Virus record (IMG/VR): IMGVR_UViG_3300025818_004904
Coordinates: 1-45,808 of that record
Direction: 5' to 3' (one strand)
DNA from: a virus
DNA: 45,808 bases
Position numbers and translations under genes: made by a program
The notes under the pieces: generated by a model
What the model was told of the DNA's origin: nothing
The model's database searches: none
Seen by the model: the letters and a program-made list of their open reading frames with translations, nothing else
Part shown: piece by piece, positions 3,671-19,065 of the stretch
Position numbering within the stretch: position 1 is the first letter of the stretch
How the letters are laid out: each line of letters opens with the position of its first letter

Positions 3671-3898
3671 ATGGAAGTCGGTAAAAAAGTAAGACTTACA
3701 GGCATCACCCGTCACGGCAAGAATCGTGTTCGTGAACAAGGGGACATCTGGGAAGTCATTCGCATGAACCCATCAGTGTCTTTCAAGACAAACGCTCCTG
3801 GACCTTTTATGTTGCTCCAGGCAACCACCACCATCAATATGCGGTGGGTCTCAACAATTGATGACGACAACTTCTCAGTAGAGGTTATTGATGAGTAA
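3671..3898 (+). CDS. Small GDLV-type protein, 75 aa
   Basis: First gene after the promoter at 3622. It starts VGKKVRLTG, equivalent to the VGDLVR of neighbouring paralogs, and ends with a FSVEVIDE strand. Its beta-rich layout fits a small SH3/KOW-like barrel, but I infer that fold only from the pattern. AGGGGAGA gives a strong ribosome-binding site. The 3' end overlaps the next gene by eight bases. Function unknown; position after a strong promoter suggests early expression. Confidence 0.8.
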   Translation: MEVGKKVRLTGITRHGKNRVREQGDIWEVIRMNPSVSFKTNAPGPFMLLQATTTINMRWVSTIDDDNFSVEVIDE

Positions 3899-4103
3899 AA
3901 ACGAATGGCGTAAAAACCTGAAGGTTGGCGACCTCGTGAGGATGAAGTCTGGACACCTTGCGATCCTGACCGAGGTATATATGCGCTCAACTGGACCTGG
4001 CGGCAGCGAGTATCCGCACGTCAAAATATTATATTGCGATGATCAGTCAGCCGGCGGGTGTAGTGCTTGGCGAGTTGCGGAGGTTCTCAATGAAGCCAGG
4101 TGA
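3891..4103 (+). CDS. GDLV-family small protein, 70 aa
   Basis: The N-terminal part has KVGDLVRMKSG and the protein ends VAEVLNEAR, the two conserved ends of this family. I chose ATG 3891 over TTG 3888 because of AGAGG at 3880-3884. The last codons (GAGGTTCTCAATGAAGCC) encode EVLNEA and at the same time hold the ribosome-binding site and start codon of the next paralog, an arrangement repeated near 6300. Function unknown. Confidence 0.82.
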   Translation: MSKNEWRKNLKVGDLVRMKSGHLAILTEVYMRSTGPGGSEYPHVKILYCDDQSAGGCSAWRVAEVLNEAR

Positions 4104-4296
4104 TTTAGTTAGAATCTCAGACTGGGATGTCAAAGCCAATTTAGGCTGGAATCCCATCGGGCTTGTCTTATCAGAGCCTGAAGTGAAGAACCACGGCACA
4201 ACCTGTGTCCTTGTTGATTGGCTTGAATCACCTGACACCGAGTATTACTCAGTCCATCATTTAGAAGTTATTTCAGGGTCAGGAAAAGGAGAATAA
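4090..4296 (+). CDS. GDLV-family small protein, 68 aa
   Basis: Starts MKPGDLVRISDWD, has a central IGLVLSEPEV strand and ends near LEVISGSGKGE. It overlaps the upstream paralog by 14 bases. The DNA around its start is nearly identical to that of the paralog at 6307, so these are recent duplicates or gene-converted copies. It directly precedes the EcoRI-like endonuclease gene, which starts two bases after its stop. Role unknown. Confidence 0.85.
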   Translation: MKPGDLVRISDWDVKANLGWNPIGLVLSEPEVKNHGTTCVLVDWLESPDTEYYSVHHLEVISGSGKGE

Positions 4297-4297
4297 A

Positions 4298-4804
4298 ATG
4301 GCAGGCGGAATCCAACCAGGGACCACGGCTTGGGACGCTCAGTCACTCAACCACGACAAGGTTGTGCGACTAGCTTCGAAGGAAGCAGAAAAGATTCTCC
4401 AAGAGAGGTATCCTGGCATTCAGCGGCACAATAAGATTATTAAAGAATCTCTTCCAACCAAGATCGGAGCTTGTTCTCCAGACGGTGGCGTCTGGTACTA
4501 TCAAGGGAAGCTGATTGCTGCTTTTGAAGCAAAAAAACAGGGACCAAGAGGGAATGCTATTGAGCGCTGGTACAAAAACTATTTCCTCATTAAAGAGATC
4601 AATGATCGCTGCCCTCTGGTGACCTATGCTATGGGCGAGGGAGTGAGAGAAGGTAATCCCATTCAGGTCATCCTTCACGCTGCCCACAAAGGACAATACA
4701 ACACTTTCCGCTCAGAAGGTCCGTCCTGCTTCCTCAAGGAAGACGGCTTTACGCTAGAGGAAATCCGAGATAGTATAGTTCAGTTCATTGAAAGCGAGAT
4801 CTGA
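4298..4804 (+). CDS. EcoRI/MunI-like type II restriction endonuclease
   Basis: This is a 168-aa PD-(D/E)xK enzyme. SPDGG (Asp62) is followed by FEAKKQG, giving Glu77 and Lys79 as the remaining catalytic residues. Next comes GNAIERWYKN at 85-94, which matches the EcoRI segment GNAIERSHKN. In EcoRI, Asn141, Glu144 and Arg145 of this segment contact the inner AATT of GAATTC, so an AATT-containing target is likely. The protein is much shorter than EcoRI (277 aa) and lacks its C-terminal part, so outer-base specificity cannot be predicted. The methyltransferase gene starts four bases downstream. GGAGAA precedes the ATG. The pair could degrade host or rival phage DNA while the phage protects itself. 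Confidence 0.85.
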   Translation: MAGGIQPGTTAWDAQSLNHDKVVRLASKEAEKILQERYPGIQRHNKIIKESLPTKIGACSPDGGVWYYQGKLIAAFEAKKQGPRGNAIERWYKNYFLIKEINDRCPLVTYAMGEGVREGNPIQVILHAAHKGQYNTFRSEGPSCFLKEDGFTLEEIRDSIVQFIESEI

Positions 4805-4808
4805 AACT

Positions 4809-5735
4809 ATGACAAAGCCACTTTATATGTGGGCAGGCGGCAAGACCCGTATGCTCAAGAAATACGCTGACCTTCTTGAGGGTGTAGCTTTTGATCGTTA
4901 TATTGAGCCGTTCTTCGGCGGCGGTGCAATGTTTATCTGGGCATATCAGAAGAATCCAGATGCTGAGTTTATTATCAATGACATCAACTCAGGTATTATG
5001 AACATTTACACTGCCATCAAGAATGATTGTGATGACTTTGTTGAAGTCTTGGACATTTTGTCTAAAGAATACTTATCTCTCCCAAAGGGGGAGACAGACA
5101 AAAAGTTTGAGAAAGAGAATGAACTAAACTGGGATAAGTTATATCGCCTCCGTCCTTGCCGCCGATACTTTTATTTCAATCTTCGCCAGAAACATGCCTA
5201 CGAATATGAGGGCTGGGGCACAACAAAAGAAGCTGCTGTTTTGTATTTCTTGATGAAAACTGGTTTTAATGGTTTGTGGCAAGAGAACAAAAACACCAAT
5301 GGACGCTTTGGCACTCCTGCTGGCCTTTTGAACCAAAAAGATAAAGTTTATGATAAAGAGGTCGTTGAGTGGTGGCACCATGCTTTACAAAAATGCACAA
5401 TCCTTAGTGGCGACTTCGAGGCAACAAAAGAACACATCAACTCTGATACCTTTTTGTTTATGGATCCTCCCTACAGAGATAGTTTCACTCAGTATGAGAC
5501 TGATTTTAATGACGCCGAGCAGAAACGTGTAATCAGCCTACTAGAAGTTTGCCAGGAACATGGCGGAACAGGATGGCTTTCAAATAGGGAGGCAGGTGAC
5601 GGCTTCTTTGAAGAGAATGCATCAGGATTTACAATGCATAAGTTCCCTGTGACTTATACCGCAGGAAGAAGAAAGAAAGTTGATGATGGCTTCGAAGCTA
5701 AGAAAGCTACAGAAATTCTTTTGGTAACAAAATAA
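4809..5735 (+). CDS. Dam-type (D12 class) adenine-N6 DNA methyltransferase
   Basis: Transfers methyl from S-adenosylmethionine to N6 of adenine in DNA. The N-terminal MWAGGKTRML and EPFFGGG (about 34-39) form the AdoMet region, NDIN at 57-60 is the acidic loop, and DPPY at 219-222 is the catalytic motif; 308 aa is normal for the D12 class. I start at ATG 4809, after the nuclease stop, rather than the upstream in-frame TTG. It probably protects the target of the adjacent EcoRI-like enzyme. EcoRI's own partner methylase is a different class, so this would be a new combination. It may instead be a solitary GATC methylase. Confidence 0.93.
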   Translation: MTKPLYMWAGGKTRMLKKYADLLEGVAFDRYIEPFFGGGAMFIWAYQKNPDAEFIINDINSGIMNIYTAIKNDCDDFVEVLDILSKEYLSLPKGETDKKFEKENELNWDKLYRLRPCRRYFYFNLRQKHAYEYEGWGTTKEAAVLYFLMKTGFNGLWQENKNTNGRFGTPAGLLNQKDKVYDKEVVEWWHHALQKCTILSGDFEATKEHINSDTFLFMDPPYRDSFTQYETDFNDAEQKRVISLLEVCQEHGGTGWLSNREAGDGFFEENASGFTMHKFPVTYTAGRRKKVDDGFEAKKATEILLVTK

Positions 5736-5768: not shown

Positions 5769-5789
5769 AGTGTTGTAAGGGAGAGAGTG

Positions 5790-5984
5790 ATGAGTGACTT
5801 CAATATGTTTCATGGCGAGCGTGTCAAGTACGCAGGGTACCACCCCCTTTTCCGTGGTAAGAAAGGTGTGGTTGTCGGCGGCGACCACCACAACATTCGT
5901 GTGGAGTGGGAAGGTCATGAAGACTATCCCCCCCGTCTTCACGAGGCGTGGGAAATTGTTTGGCTCGTAGATAGCGGAGAGTAG
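5790..5984 (+). CDS. SH3/KOW-like small protein, 64 aa
   Basis: The centre reads GKKGVVVGG...IRVEWEG, a turn-strand pattern typical of KOW/SH3-like barrels, with GERVKYAG in place of GDLV. It is the first gene after promoter 5741. ATG 5790 is preferred to GTG 5787 because of AAGGGAGA at 5778-5785. It is a divergent member of the surrounding family. Function unknown. Confidence 0.78.
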   Translation: MSDFNMFHGERVKYAGYHPLFRGKKGVVVGGDHHNIRVEWEGHEDYPPRLHEAWEIVWLVDSGE

Positions 5985-5986
5985 TT

Positions 5987-6154
5987 ATGAAAATGAAAGA
6001 GGGTGATCTGGTTCGGCACCTTGAGGATGGTCAAGCAGGAGTTATTGTTCTGTCTTGGGGTGTTATGGATGTTGTAGAGGTTCTCTGGAATGATGGTGAA
6101 GTCAGGGGACAGAACCTCTGCGAACTGGAGTTGATCAATGCAGCAAATAAATAG
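5987..6154 (+). CDS. GDLV-family small protein, 55 aa
   Basis: Encodes KMKEGDLVRHLEDG, then AGVIVLSWG and a C-terminal LCELELINAANK. The start lies two bases after the previous stop. The CTGGAG near its end serves as ribosome-binding site for the overlapping next gene at 6138. One of the shortest complete members of the family, so it may define the minimal domain. Function unknown. Confidence 0.8.
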   Translation: MKMKEGDLVRHLEDGQAGVIVLSWGVMDVVEVLWNDGEVRGQNLCELELINAANK

Positions 6155-6320
6155 GTTCGGTGTCGGTGCCCTAGTCAATGTTGATAAGCATTACAACAAG
6201 ACTTTGGGTATGATTGTTCGTCAAAGCCGTGGGTACAACTGGATTGTCAAACGTATGAACGACGGTCAAAATGTTCTAGCCCACGAAGACAATATGGAGG
6301 TGGTCAGTGAAGCCAGGTGA
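6138..6320 (+). CDS. GDLV-family small protein, 60 aa
   Basis: N-terminal FGVGALVNVDKHYNK replaces GDLV, followed by LGMIVRQSRG and a C-terminal DNMEVVSEAR. It overlaps both neighbours by 14-17 bases. Its end (GAGGTGGTCAGTGAAGCC) is nearly the same DNA as the end of the gene at 3891 and again contains the next gene's start. Confidence 0.8.
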   Translation: MQQINRFGVGALVNVDKHYNKTLGMIVRQSRGYNWIVKRMNDGQNVLAHEDNMEVVSEAR

Positions 6321-6468
6321 TTTGGTTCGGCATCGAGGGAACAAAGAATTATACCTCATACGAAAAATCTTTGAAGCCAGGGGTGAGATTATATGGGTCA
6401 ACCTAGAAGGTATGCCCGAAAACAAGATTCATTATCCAGAATCTCTAGAACTAATACAAAAAGCTTGA
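6307..6468 (+). CDS. GDLV-family small protein, 53 aa, GTG start
   Basis: Reads MKPGDLVRHRGNKELYLIRK and ends SLELIQKA. The GTG start lies inside the 3' end of the previous paralog, with GAGGTGG as ribosome-binding site. The TGA stop is inside the -35 box of the promoter at 6465, so coding and promoter information overlap. Confidence 0.78.
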   Translation: MKPGDLVRHRGNKELYLIRKIFEARGEIIWVNLEGMPENKIHYPESLELIQKA

Positions 6469-6492
6469 CAGCAACCTTATCCGTGATAGTAT
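6465..6492 (+). promoter_or_regulatory. Sigma-70-type promoter, conserved cassette 3
   Basis: TTGACA at 6465-6470, a 16-bp spacer and TAGTAT at 6487-6492, then GATGTAAGGAGAGAG before ATG 6512. The -35 box contains the stop codon of the gene at 6307. Confidence 0.83.
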
Positions 6493-6511
6493 AAGATGTA
6501 AGGAGAGAGAA

Positions 6512-6667
6512 ATGTCGGTTCAAGAACACATCGAAAACATCCTCAACGCCGAAGGTCAAGGCGCACTTGACGCTTGGTATGTTGCCATCCACGAGCACCC
6601 TCAAAGTGCTATGGATATCCACGATGAGGTTGTTGATCACCTTGTCGCTAACACCTTCATGTACTAA
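6512..6667 (+). CDS. Small helical protein, 51 aa
   Basis: A short acidic, helix-prone protein (ILNAEGQGALDAWYVAIHEH is typical). It does not carry the GDLV signature of its neighbours. It is the first gene after promoter 6465, with AAGGAGAGAG as ribosome-binding site. I do not recognise it. Confidence 0.68.
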   Translation: MSVQEHIENILNAEGQGALDAWYVAIHEHPQSAMDIHDEVVDHLVANTFMY

Positions 6668-6677
6668 GGAGAGAGTG

Positions 6678-6941
6678 GTGCTTTACGGCGAAGAACTTCT
6701 CAAGTCAATTCAGAACCGCTGCCGTATCCAGCCTGGTATGCTGATTCGCAGCCGACCAGAAGGTTTTGGAGAGAATGCCCCTCACGGCGGTAAGGTTGCT
6801 CTTGTCACGAAGGTGTCTCCTGGCTGTAAGTTTAGCCAAGACTACGAAGGTGCAGAAGAACACATCTTTTATGTCTGTGAGCCCTTTGACGGCACAAATG
6901 AGTTCGTAGATTATGTTTGCAATATGGAGCAGGTATCGTGA
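6678..6941 (+). CDS. GDLV-family small protein, 87 aa, GTG start
   Basis: RIQPGMLIRSR takes the place of PGDLVR, followed by GKVALVTKVSPG, and the protein ends VCNMEQVS. GTG 6678 is chosen over GTG 6675 because AAGGAG at 6666-6671 then has six bases of spacing. Overlaps the next gene by four bases. Confidence 0.75.
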   Translation: MLYGEELLKSIQNRCRIQPGMLIRSRPEGFGENAPHGGKVALVTKVSPGCKFSQDYEGAEEHIFYVCEPFDGTNEFVDYVCNMEQVS

Positions 6942-7198
6942 AGGTCGGGCAGATTGTAAAAATAACACCCAAGGCTTTAAACAAGTTCGCTCCTGGCATC
7001 CGCAAACGACTTGAAGGCTCAATTGGTCTGGTGGTCAAGGAGAAGTATGACCTCTCCTATAGGATTGACCAAGACAAACTCCCAGAGCGGGTCAAGGTTT
7101 ATCCATCTGCTGTTCAGTTCAATGAACTAGAAGACATTATGGGTTGCGAGGACAACACTATCATGCTCTTTGCAAATGAGGCAGAGGTCTTATCATGA
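6938..7198 (+). CDS. GDLV-family small protein, 86 aa, GTG start
   Basis: MKVGQIVKITPKALNKF at the start, GSIGLVVKEKYD in the middle and NEAEVLS at the end give the family pattern. The GTG overlaps the previous stop (GTGA). GAGGTCTTATCATGAAT at its 3' end again encodes EVLS and supplies the ribosome-binding site and start of the next gene. Confidence 0.78.
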   Translation: MKVGQIVKITPKALNKFAPGIRKRLEGSIGLVVKEKYDLSYRIDQDKLPERVKVYPSAVQFNELEDIMGCEDNTIMLFANEAEVLS

Positions 7199-7392
7199 AT
7201 CCAGGTGATTTAGTTCGCATTAGAAAGACAGCGATTGACGAGTATTCAATTGACTGGTTTATTTATCTCGCAGAAAAAAAGGCTCCTCTGCTTTTGATGG
7301 AAAAGATTAATAAGCAGCACTGGAAAGTTATGCGACCTGACGGCAGCACCTGCTTTCTTTCAGAGCGGAAACTTACGAAGAGGCTGTGGTAA
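7195..7392 (+). CDS. GDLV-family small protein, 65 aa
   Basis: Begins MNPGDLVRIRKTAIDEY and later has HWKVMRPDGS, a strand-turn typical of the family's second half. It overlaps the upstream gene by four bases (ATGA) and the next by one (TAATG). The C-terminus diverges from the LEVS ending. Function unknown. Confidence 0.82.
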   Translation: MNPGDLVRIRKTAIDEYSIDWFIYLAEKKAPLLLMEKINKQHWKVMRPDGSTCFLSERKLTKRLW

Positions 7393-7628
7393 TGCAACGA
7401 GAAACATACAACTCACGGCTCAATATGAATCCAGACAATGTCAAGCCAGGAACGCTACTACGGGCAAAGAAGTGGTGTCGAAACAATATCACTATTCGCA
7501 AGAATGGCGAGTATGCTATCATTGTACCAGCAAAAGAAAAGTATTCTGAGTATGATGTTATGTTCCCCAGCGGGATGAGGATTATGTATATGGCGATCAA
7601 CTGGGAGGTGATGAGCAGTGTTGATTAA
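7392..7628 (+). CDS. GDLV-family small protein, 78 aa
   Basis: A 14-residue N-terminal tail precedes VKPGTLLRAKKWC, then GEYAIIVPAKEK and a C-terminal INWEVMSSVD. ATG 7392 is supported by GAAGAGG at 7377-7383; GTG 7386 is too close. GGGAGGTGATG near its end forms the ribosome-binding site for the gene at 7618. Confidence 0.77.
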   Translation: MQRETYNSRLNMNPDNVKPGTLLRAKKWCRNNITIRKNGEYAIIVPAKEKYSEYDVMFPSGMRIMYMAINWEVMSSVD

Positions 7629-7857
7629 AGATAAGATGTGGAAAGTCCAGCAGCCTGGAACTATTTTACGAGCCCGTCATAGTGCTCGCCGTGGTCAGTT
7701 GGCTTTGGTTCTTGCGAGACCCTACTCCGGCCCTCGCCCAAGCAATGGCTATCCCCCCAACCAGTATGTAAAGATGCAGATGATCTCAACCGGCGAGAGG
7801 ATTGAGGAATCACTCACTAACGCCAACAACTGCTGGGACATCGTTAGCGAACCCTGA
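7618..7857 (+). CDS. GDLV-family small protein, 79 aa, GTG start
   Basis: QQPGTILRARHSARRG, GQLALVLARPYSG and a C-terminal NCWDIVSEP follow the family order. GTG 7618 is favoured by GGAGG upstream, although TTG 7621 or ATG 7636 could be used. Overlaps the upstream gene by 11 bases and is the last gene before a new promoter. Confidence 0.75.
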   Translation: MLIKDKMWKVQQPGTILRARHSARRGQLALVLARPYSGPRPSNGYPPNQYVKMQMISTGERIEESLTNANNCWDIVSEP

Positions 7858-7890
7858 CGGCAAACAAAAACTATAATAATAAAAAAACCC

Positions 7891-7899
7891 TGCTATACT
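7891..7899 (+). promoter_or_regulatory. Extended -10 promoter
   Basis: TGCTATACT is an extended -10 (TGn plus TATACT) about 20 bp before ATG 7919. No convincing -35 box is visible; the upstream stretch is A/T-rich. Confidence 0.55.
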
Positions 7900-7918
7900 T
7901 TACAAAAAGGAGAAAGTT

Positions 7919-8080
7919 ATGAGCAACCCAGAACTTAAGCCAGGAACCATGGTACAACACCCAGCATCAGGCGACACTGGTCAGCTACTAGGACCTTTTG
8001 TTCGCAAGGGCGAGCGATGGTGGACTGTGAATTGGCAAGAGGGCGGCACCCTAGCACACAAAGAAGACGAAATCCAATAA
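7919..8080 (+). CDS. GDLV-family small protein, 53 aa
   Basis: LKPGTMVQHPASGDTGQLLG is followed by RWWTVNWQEGGT and ends HKEDEIQ. It has its own promoter (7891) and AAAAGGAGAAAG ribosome-binding site. The Trp-rich second strand resembles SH3-like barrels; fold inferred only. Confidence 0.75.
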   Translation: MSNPELKPGTMVQHPASGDTGQLLGPFVRKGERWWTVNWQEGGTLAHKEDEIQ

Positions 8081-8085
8081 ATCAT

Positions 8086-8113
8086 TAGACACAGAAAAAA
8101 CCTGTGTTATAAT
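8086..8113 (+). promoter_or_regulatory. Sigma-70-type promoter with 16-bp spacer
   Basis: TAGACA at 8086-8091 (five of six to TTGACA), a 16-bp spacer and consensus TATAAT at 8108-8113, with TGT as extended -10. The spacer length matches the eight main cassettes, but the leader differs. Confidence 0.7.
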
Positions 8114-8131
8114 GACGTGGAGGTTGCTCTT

Positions 8132-8335
8132 ATGGCTCTCAAGTCAAAATACAGCCCTGGACAACTCGTCGAGATTACGATTGCCGGGCAACGCTATGTT
8201 GGGCTAGTTTTATCAACTACCCCAGCACCACGAAGAGCAATGAGCCCGATGTTAAAAGTCGAATGGACTGGCGAAGCCCCTCGTGATTATCAAGTTGAGT
8301 ATATCTCAGAAGAGGGTTTGCGGCTGGTGAAATAA
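8132..8335 (+). CDS. GDLV-family small protein, 67 aa
   Basis: KYSPGQLVEITIAGQRYVGL is followed by LKVEWTGEAP and the C-terminal YISEEGLRLVK. ATG 8132 is placed eight bases after GGAGG (8119-8123); the upstream in-frame GTG overlaps that site. Last member of the first array. Confidence 0.77.
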   Translation: MALKSKYSPGQLVEITIAGQRYVGLVLSTTPAPRRAMSPMLKVEWTGEAPRDYQVEYISEEGLRLVK

Positions 8336-15124: not shown

Positions 15125-15427
15125 ATGTCCCAATATAAGATTTCCAAAGCAAGGTTGAAAGAAATTATCAAAGAAGAATATGAAGCTGCTATGACTCGTG
15201 TTGAGGAAGCAGAAAAGCCAGACTTTCTTGACCTAGACAAAGACGGCGATAAAGAAGAGCCAATGTCCAAGGCTGCCGACGAAAAGGAAGAAAAGGAAGG
15301 CGACAAAGAAGAAAAGGACTTGAGCAAAGTACCACCACAACTTCGCAAAAGCATGGAAAAGAAGATGAAGAAAGAATCCCTTGACTCAATCCGTGCTCTT
15401 ATTCAGCAAGAACTTAAGAACCTATAA
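15125..15427 (+). CDS. Small charged protein with N-terminal leader motif, 100 aa
   Basis: The N-terminus ISKARLKEIIKEEYEAAM is a short amphipathic helix like those on several other proteins here. The middle is a highly charged Lys/Asp/Glu low-complexity stretch and the C-terminus is a second helix (LDSIRALIQQELKNL). AAGGAGAAAA precedes the ATG. Such leader-plus-linker proteins are common near capsid genes of large myoviruses, so it may be packaged. Overlaps the next start by one base (TAATG). Confidence 0.75.
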   Translation: MSQYKISKARLKEIIKEEYEAAMTRVEEAEKPDFLDLDKDGDKEEPMSKAADEKEEKEGDKEEKDLSKVPPQLRKSMEKKMKKESLDSIRALIQQELKNL

Positions 15428-16688
15428 TGAACTTAAAACCTCATCAAGTTGATTTAATAATCACTAATGGACCAGTACGTGACGAGTTTGCTCACAAGGT
15501 CAAGGAACTGGATCGTCGGTTGAAGATGAACGGGATGGACTACAAGCAGTGGGACACCCTTACAGACCATCAACACGAGATCTTTACAGATAATCTGTTC
15601 CTTGATGGCGAGTGTGCTGCTAGCCCAGAGAACTATGTTCGAGGGGCAGTTGATTCCTGCTGGTGCCCAGATGTAGTGGAAGACCTACACCACCACTCCC
15701 CAGTCTTGATGAGGGAAATAGAAAAACAACAGGAGATGGCTCCTGATATGACCGTGAAGATTAGCGAAAGCTTAGGCTTCTTAAATGAGTTTATCGACAG
15801 GCAAGTAGATCTAATTCAAGAAGCCTCCCAAGCGGTGCAGCAATATGAGCAAAAGGTTTTGGATAGCCTAGCAGAAACAGGTATTCAGGGCGTAATGATC
15901 GACGCTGACGCTGATTCAAATGGACCCGACGGCCAGTTCGTGATTAATGGTGAGCCATATTGGTTAGAAGTAAAACTAAACACCAGAGCACAAATGGGCG
16001 ATGGTGCTATAAAGTATTATCCTGCTCGACCAGAAGGTCAGCGTTTCTACTTGTCTAGGCCTGAAAAGTTTGATGTTCAGGGCTGGGAGGTTGCAAAGGC
16101 TGCCCTAGAGGAGAAAGAAGAAGATATCCTCAATTGGGTAACCGCCCTTATTGACCCTGCTCGACCAGCAAGCTCTAAATGGGTTGACGATCCCAACAAG
16201 ACCGCACTAGGCTTCCAGACTACTTCCAGAAAATATGAAGCAGCTAAAGAGGCTGGTCTTTTAAACAAAGCCAGTGCAGGTTTTGGAAAGCTTCCAGCAA
16301 TCAAGGCTCCTCCTACTTTTATTAATAATATGTACGGAGCAAAGGACATTTACTATATTCAGATTGGCGGCAAGGGTCTGTATTATATGGCTAAAAACCC
16401 AGCTAATCTACCAGTTCCTCAGTTCGACGGCGAAATTAATGTTGAAATGCGTCCCCGAGCTAGCGGGAAACCAAAAACAAAAGACGCTCAAGGTAAAACA
16501 ATTTATAAATATGTGCCATCTGCTGTAGAGGGTGATGAAGACGTCCTATATCAGGGCGGAACCTATTCAGTTGTTGCACGATTTATGTCTAAAGATATTG
16601 CTCCAAGTCCATATACCCTTGACGACCCAGCAAGTATTGAGAAAATGCTAGCAGCAATGAATGCTGCACCCGAAGAAAGCGAGGAAAC

Positions 16689-16692
<4 letters not shown>
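15427..16692 (+). CDS. Putative PD-(D/E)xK nuclease paired with methyltransferase
   Basis: I do not recognise the 421-aa family as a whole, but residues 167-183 read PDG, 12 residues, then EVK, a PD-(D/E)xK site with Asp168, Glu181 and Lys183. The C-terminal half (FINNMYGAKDIYYIQIGG and a later VARFMSKD) may be the DNA-recognition part. The stop overlaps the start of a Dam-type methyltransferase by four bases, the classic arrangement of coupled restriction and modification genes. A type II-like restriction enzyme is the simplest reading. A packaging or recombination nuclease is possible because neighbours look virion-related. Confidence 0.72.

Positions 16693-19065
<2,373 letters not shown>

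Follow-up and report, generated by a model that had tools for sequence, protein, structure and literature searches.

The locus and its setting

The gene pair described here was found on IMG/VR record IMGVR_UViG_3300025818_004904, a 45.8-kb virus contig that was analysed as a whole and is referred to below as the window. The first gene (4298..4804, + strand) encodes a putative compact endonuclease of the EcoRI family, 168 AA residues long, with catalytic residues D62, E77 and K79 and an AATT-reading segment G85-N86-A87-I88-E89-R90, and a Shine-Dalgarno-like purine-rich stretch, AAAAGGAGAATAAA (4283..4297, + strand), precedes its start. The second gene (4809..5735, + strand), separated from the first by 4 bases, encodes a D12/Dam-class N6-adenine methyltransferase (MTase), the predicted AATT-protecting partner; its length of 308 AA residues is counted from the ATG, the TTG start at 4788 merely giving the longest frame. 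Other genes of the contig encode part of Pol III alpha, dUTPase, FtsH, GroEL, ThyX, a ClpP-like protease and ATPases. This gene content appears to fit a large phage, in line with the phage context given to the pair in a preliminary description of the locus.

The nuclease

The product of ORF 4298-4804 contains the motifs C-SPDGG, FEAKKQG and GNAIERW. The PDGG...EAKxQG catalytic site and the GNAIER segment that had been noticed in the 168-residue protein are thus present, and an alignment of 42 phage relatives shows them to be nearly or fully invariant. Among the fully conserved positions are P61-D62, E77, K79, Q81, G85-N86-A87, E89-R90 and K93-N94, and I88 is kept in more than 90% of these relatives. 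The PD-(D/E)XK catalytic residues of the EcoRI family are aligned to their EcoRI counterparts, which are numbered D91, E111 and K113 in that enzyme. The invariant residues of the phage protein match those that in EcoRI carry out catalysis or contact the inner AATT, the contacts in the GNAIER segment being N141, A142 and R145 (PMC4081073).

The nuclease belongs to PHROG 2400 (E 2.2e-38), to which PHROG assigns no function. A profile search, proposed in the preliminary description as the test that could refute membership of the EcoRI family, placed the protein inside it. Profile-profile comparison in hhalign against an EcoRI-family profile of five proteins gave P=7.9e-12 over the whole protein, with PDGG, ExK, GNAIER and KN aligned, and hmmsearch of the PDB with the nuclease profile matched EcoRI as the sole family (E 2.4e-7). 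The profile was required for this result, since a phmmer search of the PDB with the window protein alone returned nothing relevant. The single protein also matched no model in Pfam or NCBIfam, and its PADLOC scan gave nothing above noise save a weak REase_II match (E 0.011). With Pfam PF02963 the window protein gave no match and the best of the 42 members, at E 0.027, stayed short of the curated cut-off, suggesting that the nuclease is a distant EcoRI homologue outside the curated Pfam family as modelled.

Structural modelling in AlphaFold2 gave a confident model (pLDDT 89.4) with the core order helix-three strands-helix-strand (alpha-beta3-alpha-beta). A Foldseek search of the PDB with this model yielded no match below E 1e-3, and EcoRI was absent among the listed matches. 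The protein had been thought to lack the C-terminal half of EcoRI, which is not borne out: the alignment starts near the EcoRI N-terminus and reaches approximately column 264 of 287, with deletions inside it, the missing EcoRI segments being ~20 residues between EAKHQG and GNAIER and a long insertion after the fourth strand. The nuclease is compact throughout, not truncated, and the product of ORF 4298-4804 is, as judged from these comparisons, a compact EcoRI homologue.

Homologues with 42-43% identity were found in the T4-like cyanophages S-BM1 and S-RIM2. The S-CREM2 homologue (gp11, 40% identity to the window nuclease) is annotated as 'restriction endonuclease EcoRI'; EcoRI is not mentioned in the S-CREM2 paper, the assignment of gp11 coming from annotation only, and the passages on virion proteins that were consulted do not name gp11. 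No relatives were found by tblastn in plasmids, nor by a bacterial genome scan with strict peptide patterns, the latter being no proof of absence.

The methyltransferase

The MTase (4809-5735) matches MethyltransfD12 with E 8.6e-34, which bears out its earlier assignment to the D12 class. It passes the cut-off of TIGR00571 'dam' (156.9 bits against 114.85) and aligns with DpnM and Dam. Recognition of GATC by Dam is divided between K9 and R124, which read the outer G bases, and other residues, which read the central A:T pairs. At the matching positions of the window MTase these two GATC-reading residues are absent, with M in place of K9 (LYMWAGGK) and Q in place of R124 (FNGLWQEN), and the same holds across the clade of nuclease-linked MTases, which carry M, I or V at the K9 position (K in L021) and Q at the R124 position. 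Given the roles of K9 and R124 in Dam, their replacement leads us to expect an xATy site other than GATC for this enzyme.

All linked MTases except that of S-CREM2 fall into one supported clade (98/94), separate from Dam, DpnM and T4 Dam. A second D12 MTase, encoded in S-BM1, S-RIM2, G004, G012 and G013, is a separate enzyme of the RYPGGK/RYMGGK type. In G004 no MTase adjoins the nuclease, and a member of the clade is located ~18 kb away.

Pairing of the two genes across phages

Alignment found 84 nuclease loci in IMG/VR, 80 of which were kept. A D12 MTase is present at 66 of the 84 loci, the window included: downstream of the nuclease at 64, fused to it at one and upstream at one. All 64 downstream MTases are on the same strand as the nuclease, either overlapping it, within tens of bases of it or past one intervening gene. 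The fusion (L046:1887-3296) is a natural single ORF of nuclease and D12 MTase, the upstream case is L073, and at L078 an MT-A70-class MTase (4661-5700) follows the nuclease in place of the D12 enzyme. Nuclease and MTase distances are correlated (Mantel r 0.68, 0/2000 permutations), so that the two proteins co-diverge. Adjacency of a nuclease and an MTase gene, a feature of type II restriction-modification systems, was found at this locus and its relatives.

Solo nucleases of the type seen at L011-L020 were considered as MTase-free cases and dropped: because the near-complete G004 carries its MTase ~18 kb from the nuclease, such loci were not counted as solo. In S-RIM2, gene 059 (L004:5627-6670), encoding a 347-AA protein with a weak DUF6551 match, lies between nuclease and MTase. 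This insertion occurs in most of the S-RIM2 isolates listed, and KX349240 has the MTase directly after the nuclease.

AATT elimination in a nuclease-only lineage

Three nuclease-bearing contigs of ~115 kb each, representing two species of a T4-like cyanophage lineage, contain no AATT at all, compared to Markov expectations of 233 (G006), 339 (G007) and 281 (G008). The 41-kb G027, an extension of G006 when placed on the map of G007, is likewise free of AATT. G007 and G008 are 99.99% identical and G006 is 87% identical to both; as the two species are related, the AATT-free genomes count as one lineage. No D12 MTase was detected in the G006, G007, G008 and G027 contigs, and no N6_N4 MTase in G006-G008; as the nuclease-only genomes are represented by contigs of ~115 kb, an MTase may be encoded elsewhere in them.

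As the Markov expectation was not trusted on its own, it was supplemented by a synonymous-codon null, near-miss counts, 13 control genomes and 80 contigs sampled in the reverse direction. Synonymous-codon shuffles of the coding DNA gave 315 +/- 13 AATT in G007 and 229 +/- 12 in G006, against none observed. The two species differ by 8,044 substitutions, 326 of which hit the mismatched base of an AATT near-miss; AATT was gained in 0/326 of these possible one-step changes, compared to 143/351 for ATTA and 199/547 for GATC. AATA, AATC and AATG remain common in the lineage (506-647 each), indicating that exactly AATT has been removed, whatever its flanks. GATC is present at 673 against 810 expected.

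Control genomes and alternative explanations

In 13 cyanophages checked to be nuclease-free, observed/expected (o/e) AATT is 0.64-1.00. When all 256 tetranucleotides are ranked by how well they tell genomes with the nuclease from those without it, AATT, which was the hypothesis before the scan, comes first (p 2.2e-4 uncorrected, about 0.06 after Bonferroni correction). In the reverse test, 79 of 80 related contigs sampled via gp32 have AATT o/e of 0.64-1.14, and the sole AATT-free contig continues G006, which bears the nuclease. Pair-bearing genomes range from 0.12 to 0.91, and other phages with the nuclease show depletion to varying degrees (G026 0.12, G004 0.16, S-BM1 0.25). Nuclease-bearing genomes that are near-complete and retain AATT have a D12 MTase as well, usually one without Dam K9 and R124. 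The fragments G003 and G014 keep AATT, and no MTase was seen in those fragments.

S-CREM2 is an exception, having the nuclease, 185 AATT sites and only a D12 MTase of a different type, which it has in common with the nuclease-free S-N03 and ACG-2014f. This KWTGGK...FNGIWQGYK type (L005:7468-8358, L152:19644-20537 and L153:34011-34892 in S-CREM2, S-N03 and ACG-2014f) is located near a large protein of 869-980 AA residues, possibly a two-gene system of another kind.

A tetranucleotide can be lost entirely for other reasons. Most of the T4-like cyanophages examined have no CCGG or almost none, with or without the nuclease (records W04-W14; contigs G003-G008 and G021), TTAA is absent from S-RIM14 (202 expected) and CTAG from G021 (202 expected), hinting at other site-purging pressures. 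Because CCGG is missing regardless of the nuclease, a zero count in itself is no proof of a self-nuclease; the argument for one is built on the specificity of the association for the nuclease-bearing lineage. An AATT-specific restriction system of the host could have driven the loss, the phage nuclease having another target or not being the cause, and the CCGG, TTAA and CTAG losses, for which no self-nuclease is known, are in keeping with this. We nevertheless consider it unlikely, given that AATT elimination was seen only in the nuclease-bearing lineage, with neither the 13 nuclease-free relatives nor 79 of the 80 sampled contigs strongly depleted, and that graded depletion recurs in G026, G004 and S-BM1. 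In addition, the core that EcoRI reads through its GNAIER element is exactly AATT (PMC4081073).

The second alternative is that nuclease and MTase are isospecific with EcoRI and both act on GAATTC, as family membership and the low number of sites in the window might suggest. GAATTC occurs exactly four times, at the positions given earlier (11095, 22335, 28873 and 39744), and this is the expected count (4 against 3.9, and 8 against 10.6 in S-BM1); both GAATTC and GATC have normal frequencies in pair-bearing genomes. The nuclease-only lineage has lost AATT in all flanking contexts, and the nuclease is without the long EcoRI segments. Site statistics favour AATT of any flank over GAATTC as the target, and GAATTC specificity is very improbable. 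The preliminary description had held that the GAATTC sites call for self-protection or a different target. Its argument for protection stands, since the 102 AATT sites of the window would need protection by methylation, while AATT, irrespective of flank, and not GAATTC is predicted to be the site that matters.

It is about equally improbable that the nuclease acts in DNA repair, recombination or homing and lies beside a methylase by chance. Such a role would agree with the Mus81/Hef/XPF nuclease domains that Foldseek matched weakly, and is opposed by the recurrent adjacency, the fusion, the co-divergence with the MTase, the substitution of an MT-A70-class MTase at L078 and the counter-selection of AATT. 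GATC specificity of the pair, following the Dam-class label, the 'dam' subfamily score and the alignment with DpnM and Dam, is hardly credible given the replaced K9 and R124 and the many, freely gained GATC sites of the nuclease-only lineage, and was dropped on site counts, as was GAATTC specificity.

Proposed function and comparison with known systems

The homology to EcoRI, the conserved linkage, AATT as the selected sequence, and the MTase clade with its residues are supported computationally. From these we infer cleavage, methylation, dimerisation and purpose as follows. The small EcoRI-type PD-(D/E)XK nuclease, presumably a dimer, retains the inner AATT reader GNAIER and would cut unmodified AATT in host DNA and in the DNA of co-infecting phages, yielding nucleotides and/or excluding competitors. 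The adjacent D12 MTase, apparently a Dam relative with altered readers of the outer G:C pairs, would methylate an adenine within AATT on the DNA of the phage itself. That both enzymes share one specificity is suggested by the co-occurrence of the MTase clade with AATT-keeping genomes and by the K9/R124 changes, S-CREM2 being the exception. In at least one cyanophage lineage, where the MTase was not found, self-immunity would be gained through complete removal of AATT, so that a restriction enzyme may be carried safely without a partner.

We are thus fairly confident that the pair represents a phage-encoded type II restriction-modification unit that targets AATT and acts against host or rival DNA, with self-immunity provided by methylation or by total site elimination. 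It is also likely, if less firmly so, that the phage mini-EcoRI family as a whole serves as a self/non-self AATT weapon with interchangeable immunity, either a Dam-derived AATT methylase or a genome-wide AATT purge. The earlier suggestion of a role against host or rival DNA is judged right on this reading and would describe the purpose of the pair.

Bacteria are the usual owners of restriction enzymes, which they use against phages; here such a weapon appears to be carried by marine and other aquatic phages. No report of phage-borne AATT enzymes was found in the open-access literature searched. The target of a very small EcoRI-family enzyme is predicted from genome statistics alone. If the proposal is true, PHROG 2400, a group of unknown function, would be explained, cyanophages would have a means of breaking down host DNA or excluding rivals, a compact AATT cutter and its methylase would become available, and site purging could replace methylation as self-immunity.

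The nuclease resembles EcoRI, MunI and MluCI in PDGG...ExK, GNAIER, the order of core elements and the AATT core, the residue comparison being with EcoRI only. EcoRI star activity is directed at N/AATTN (PMC4081073). Unlike EcoRI, which has 277 AA residues, the phage nuclease has 168 and is without internal EcoRI segments, is predicted to recognise a 4-bp AATT site, is partnered by a D12 instead of an EcoRI-type MTase, and was found in phages, with no match in plasmids or in the bacterial genome scan. The phage MTase shares the D12 family, its motifs and a TIGR00571 score above cut-off with Dam, DpnM and T4 Dam, whereas its clade is set apart (98/94) by M/I/V and Q at the K9 and R124 positions.

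Chlorovirus restriction-modification systems, such as CviAII of PBCV-1, likewise consist of a virus-encoded MTase adjacent to a short-site endonuclease. According to passages of PMC7019647, they have a proposed role in host DNA degradation, and the enzymes proved not to be responsible for the exclusion of other viruses; host degradation would therefore be the likelier role for the phage pair. Chloroviruses differ in being eukaryotic algal viruses with different enzymes and in packaging their nucleases in virions; a site-elimination variant is not described in those passages of PMC7019647. A divergent EcoRI homologue beside a D12 MTase is also encoded on the Paracoccus marcusii plasmid pCP157_17 (L085:1106-2976). 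This plasmid-borne pair has the MTase first and longer proteins, and is possibly a cellular cousin of the phage arrangement.

Other observations in the window

A possible second restriction-like pair is located at 15427-17486, where a second D12 MTase, of the RYPGGK type (16689-17486), has its start overlapped by an ORF of 421 AA residues that carries a PD-ExK-like motif, GPDGQF...LEVK. In relatives the N-terminus of this ORF is conserved and the motif domain variable; the downstream MTase is present in L228 and L230, and another gene takes its place in L227 and L229.

The nuclease-MTase pair sits within a run of many small ORFs (3671-4296 and 5787-8335), several of which share a 'KPGDLVR'-like start and apparently form a tandem paralogous family. 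In the window, CGCG is missing (0 against 55 expected) and GGCC, with 17 occurrences against 114, is strongly depleted, and both patterns are also seen in the related contig G001.
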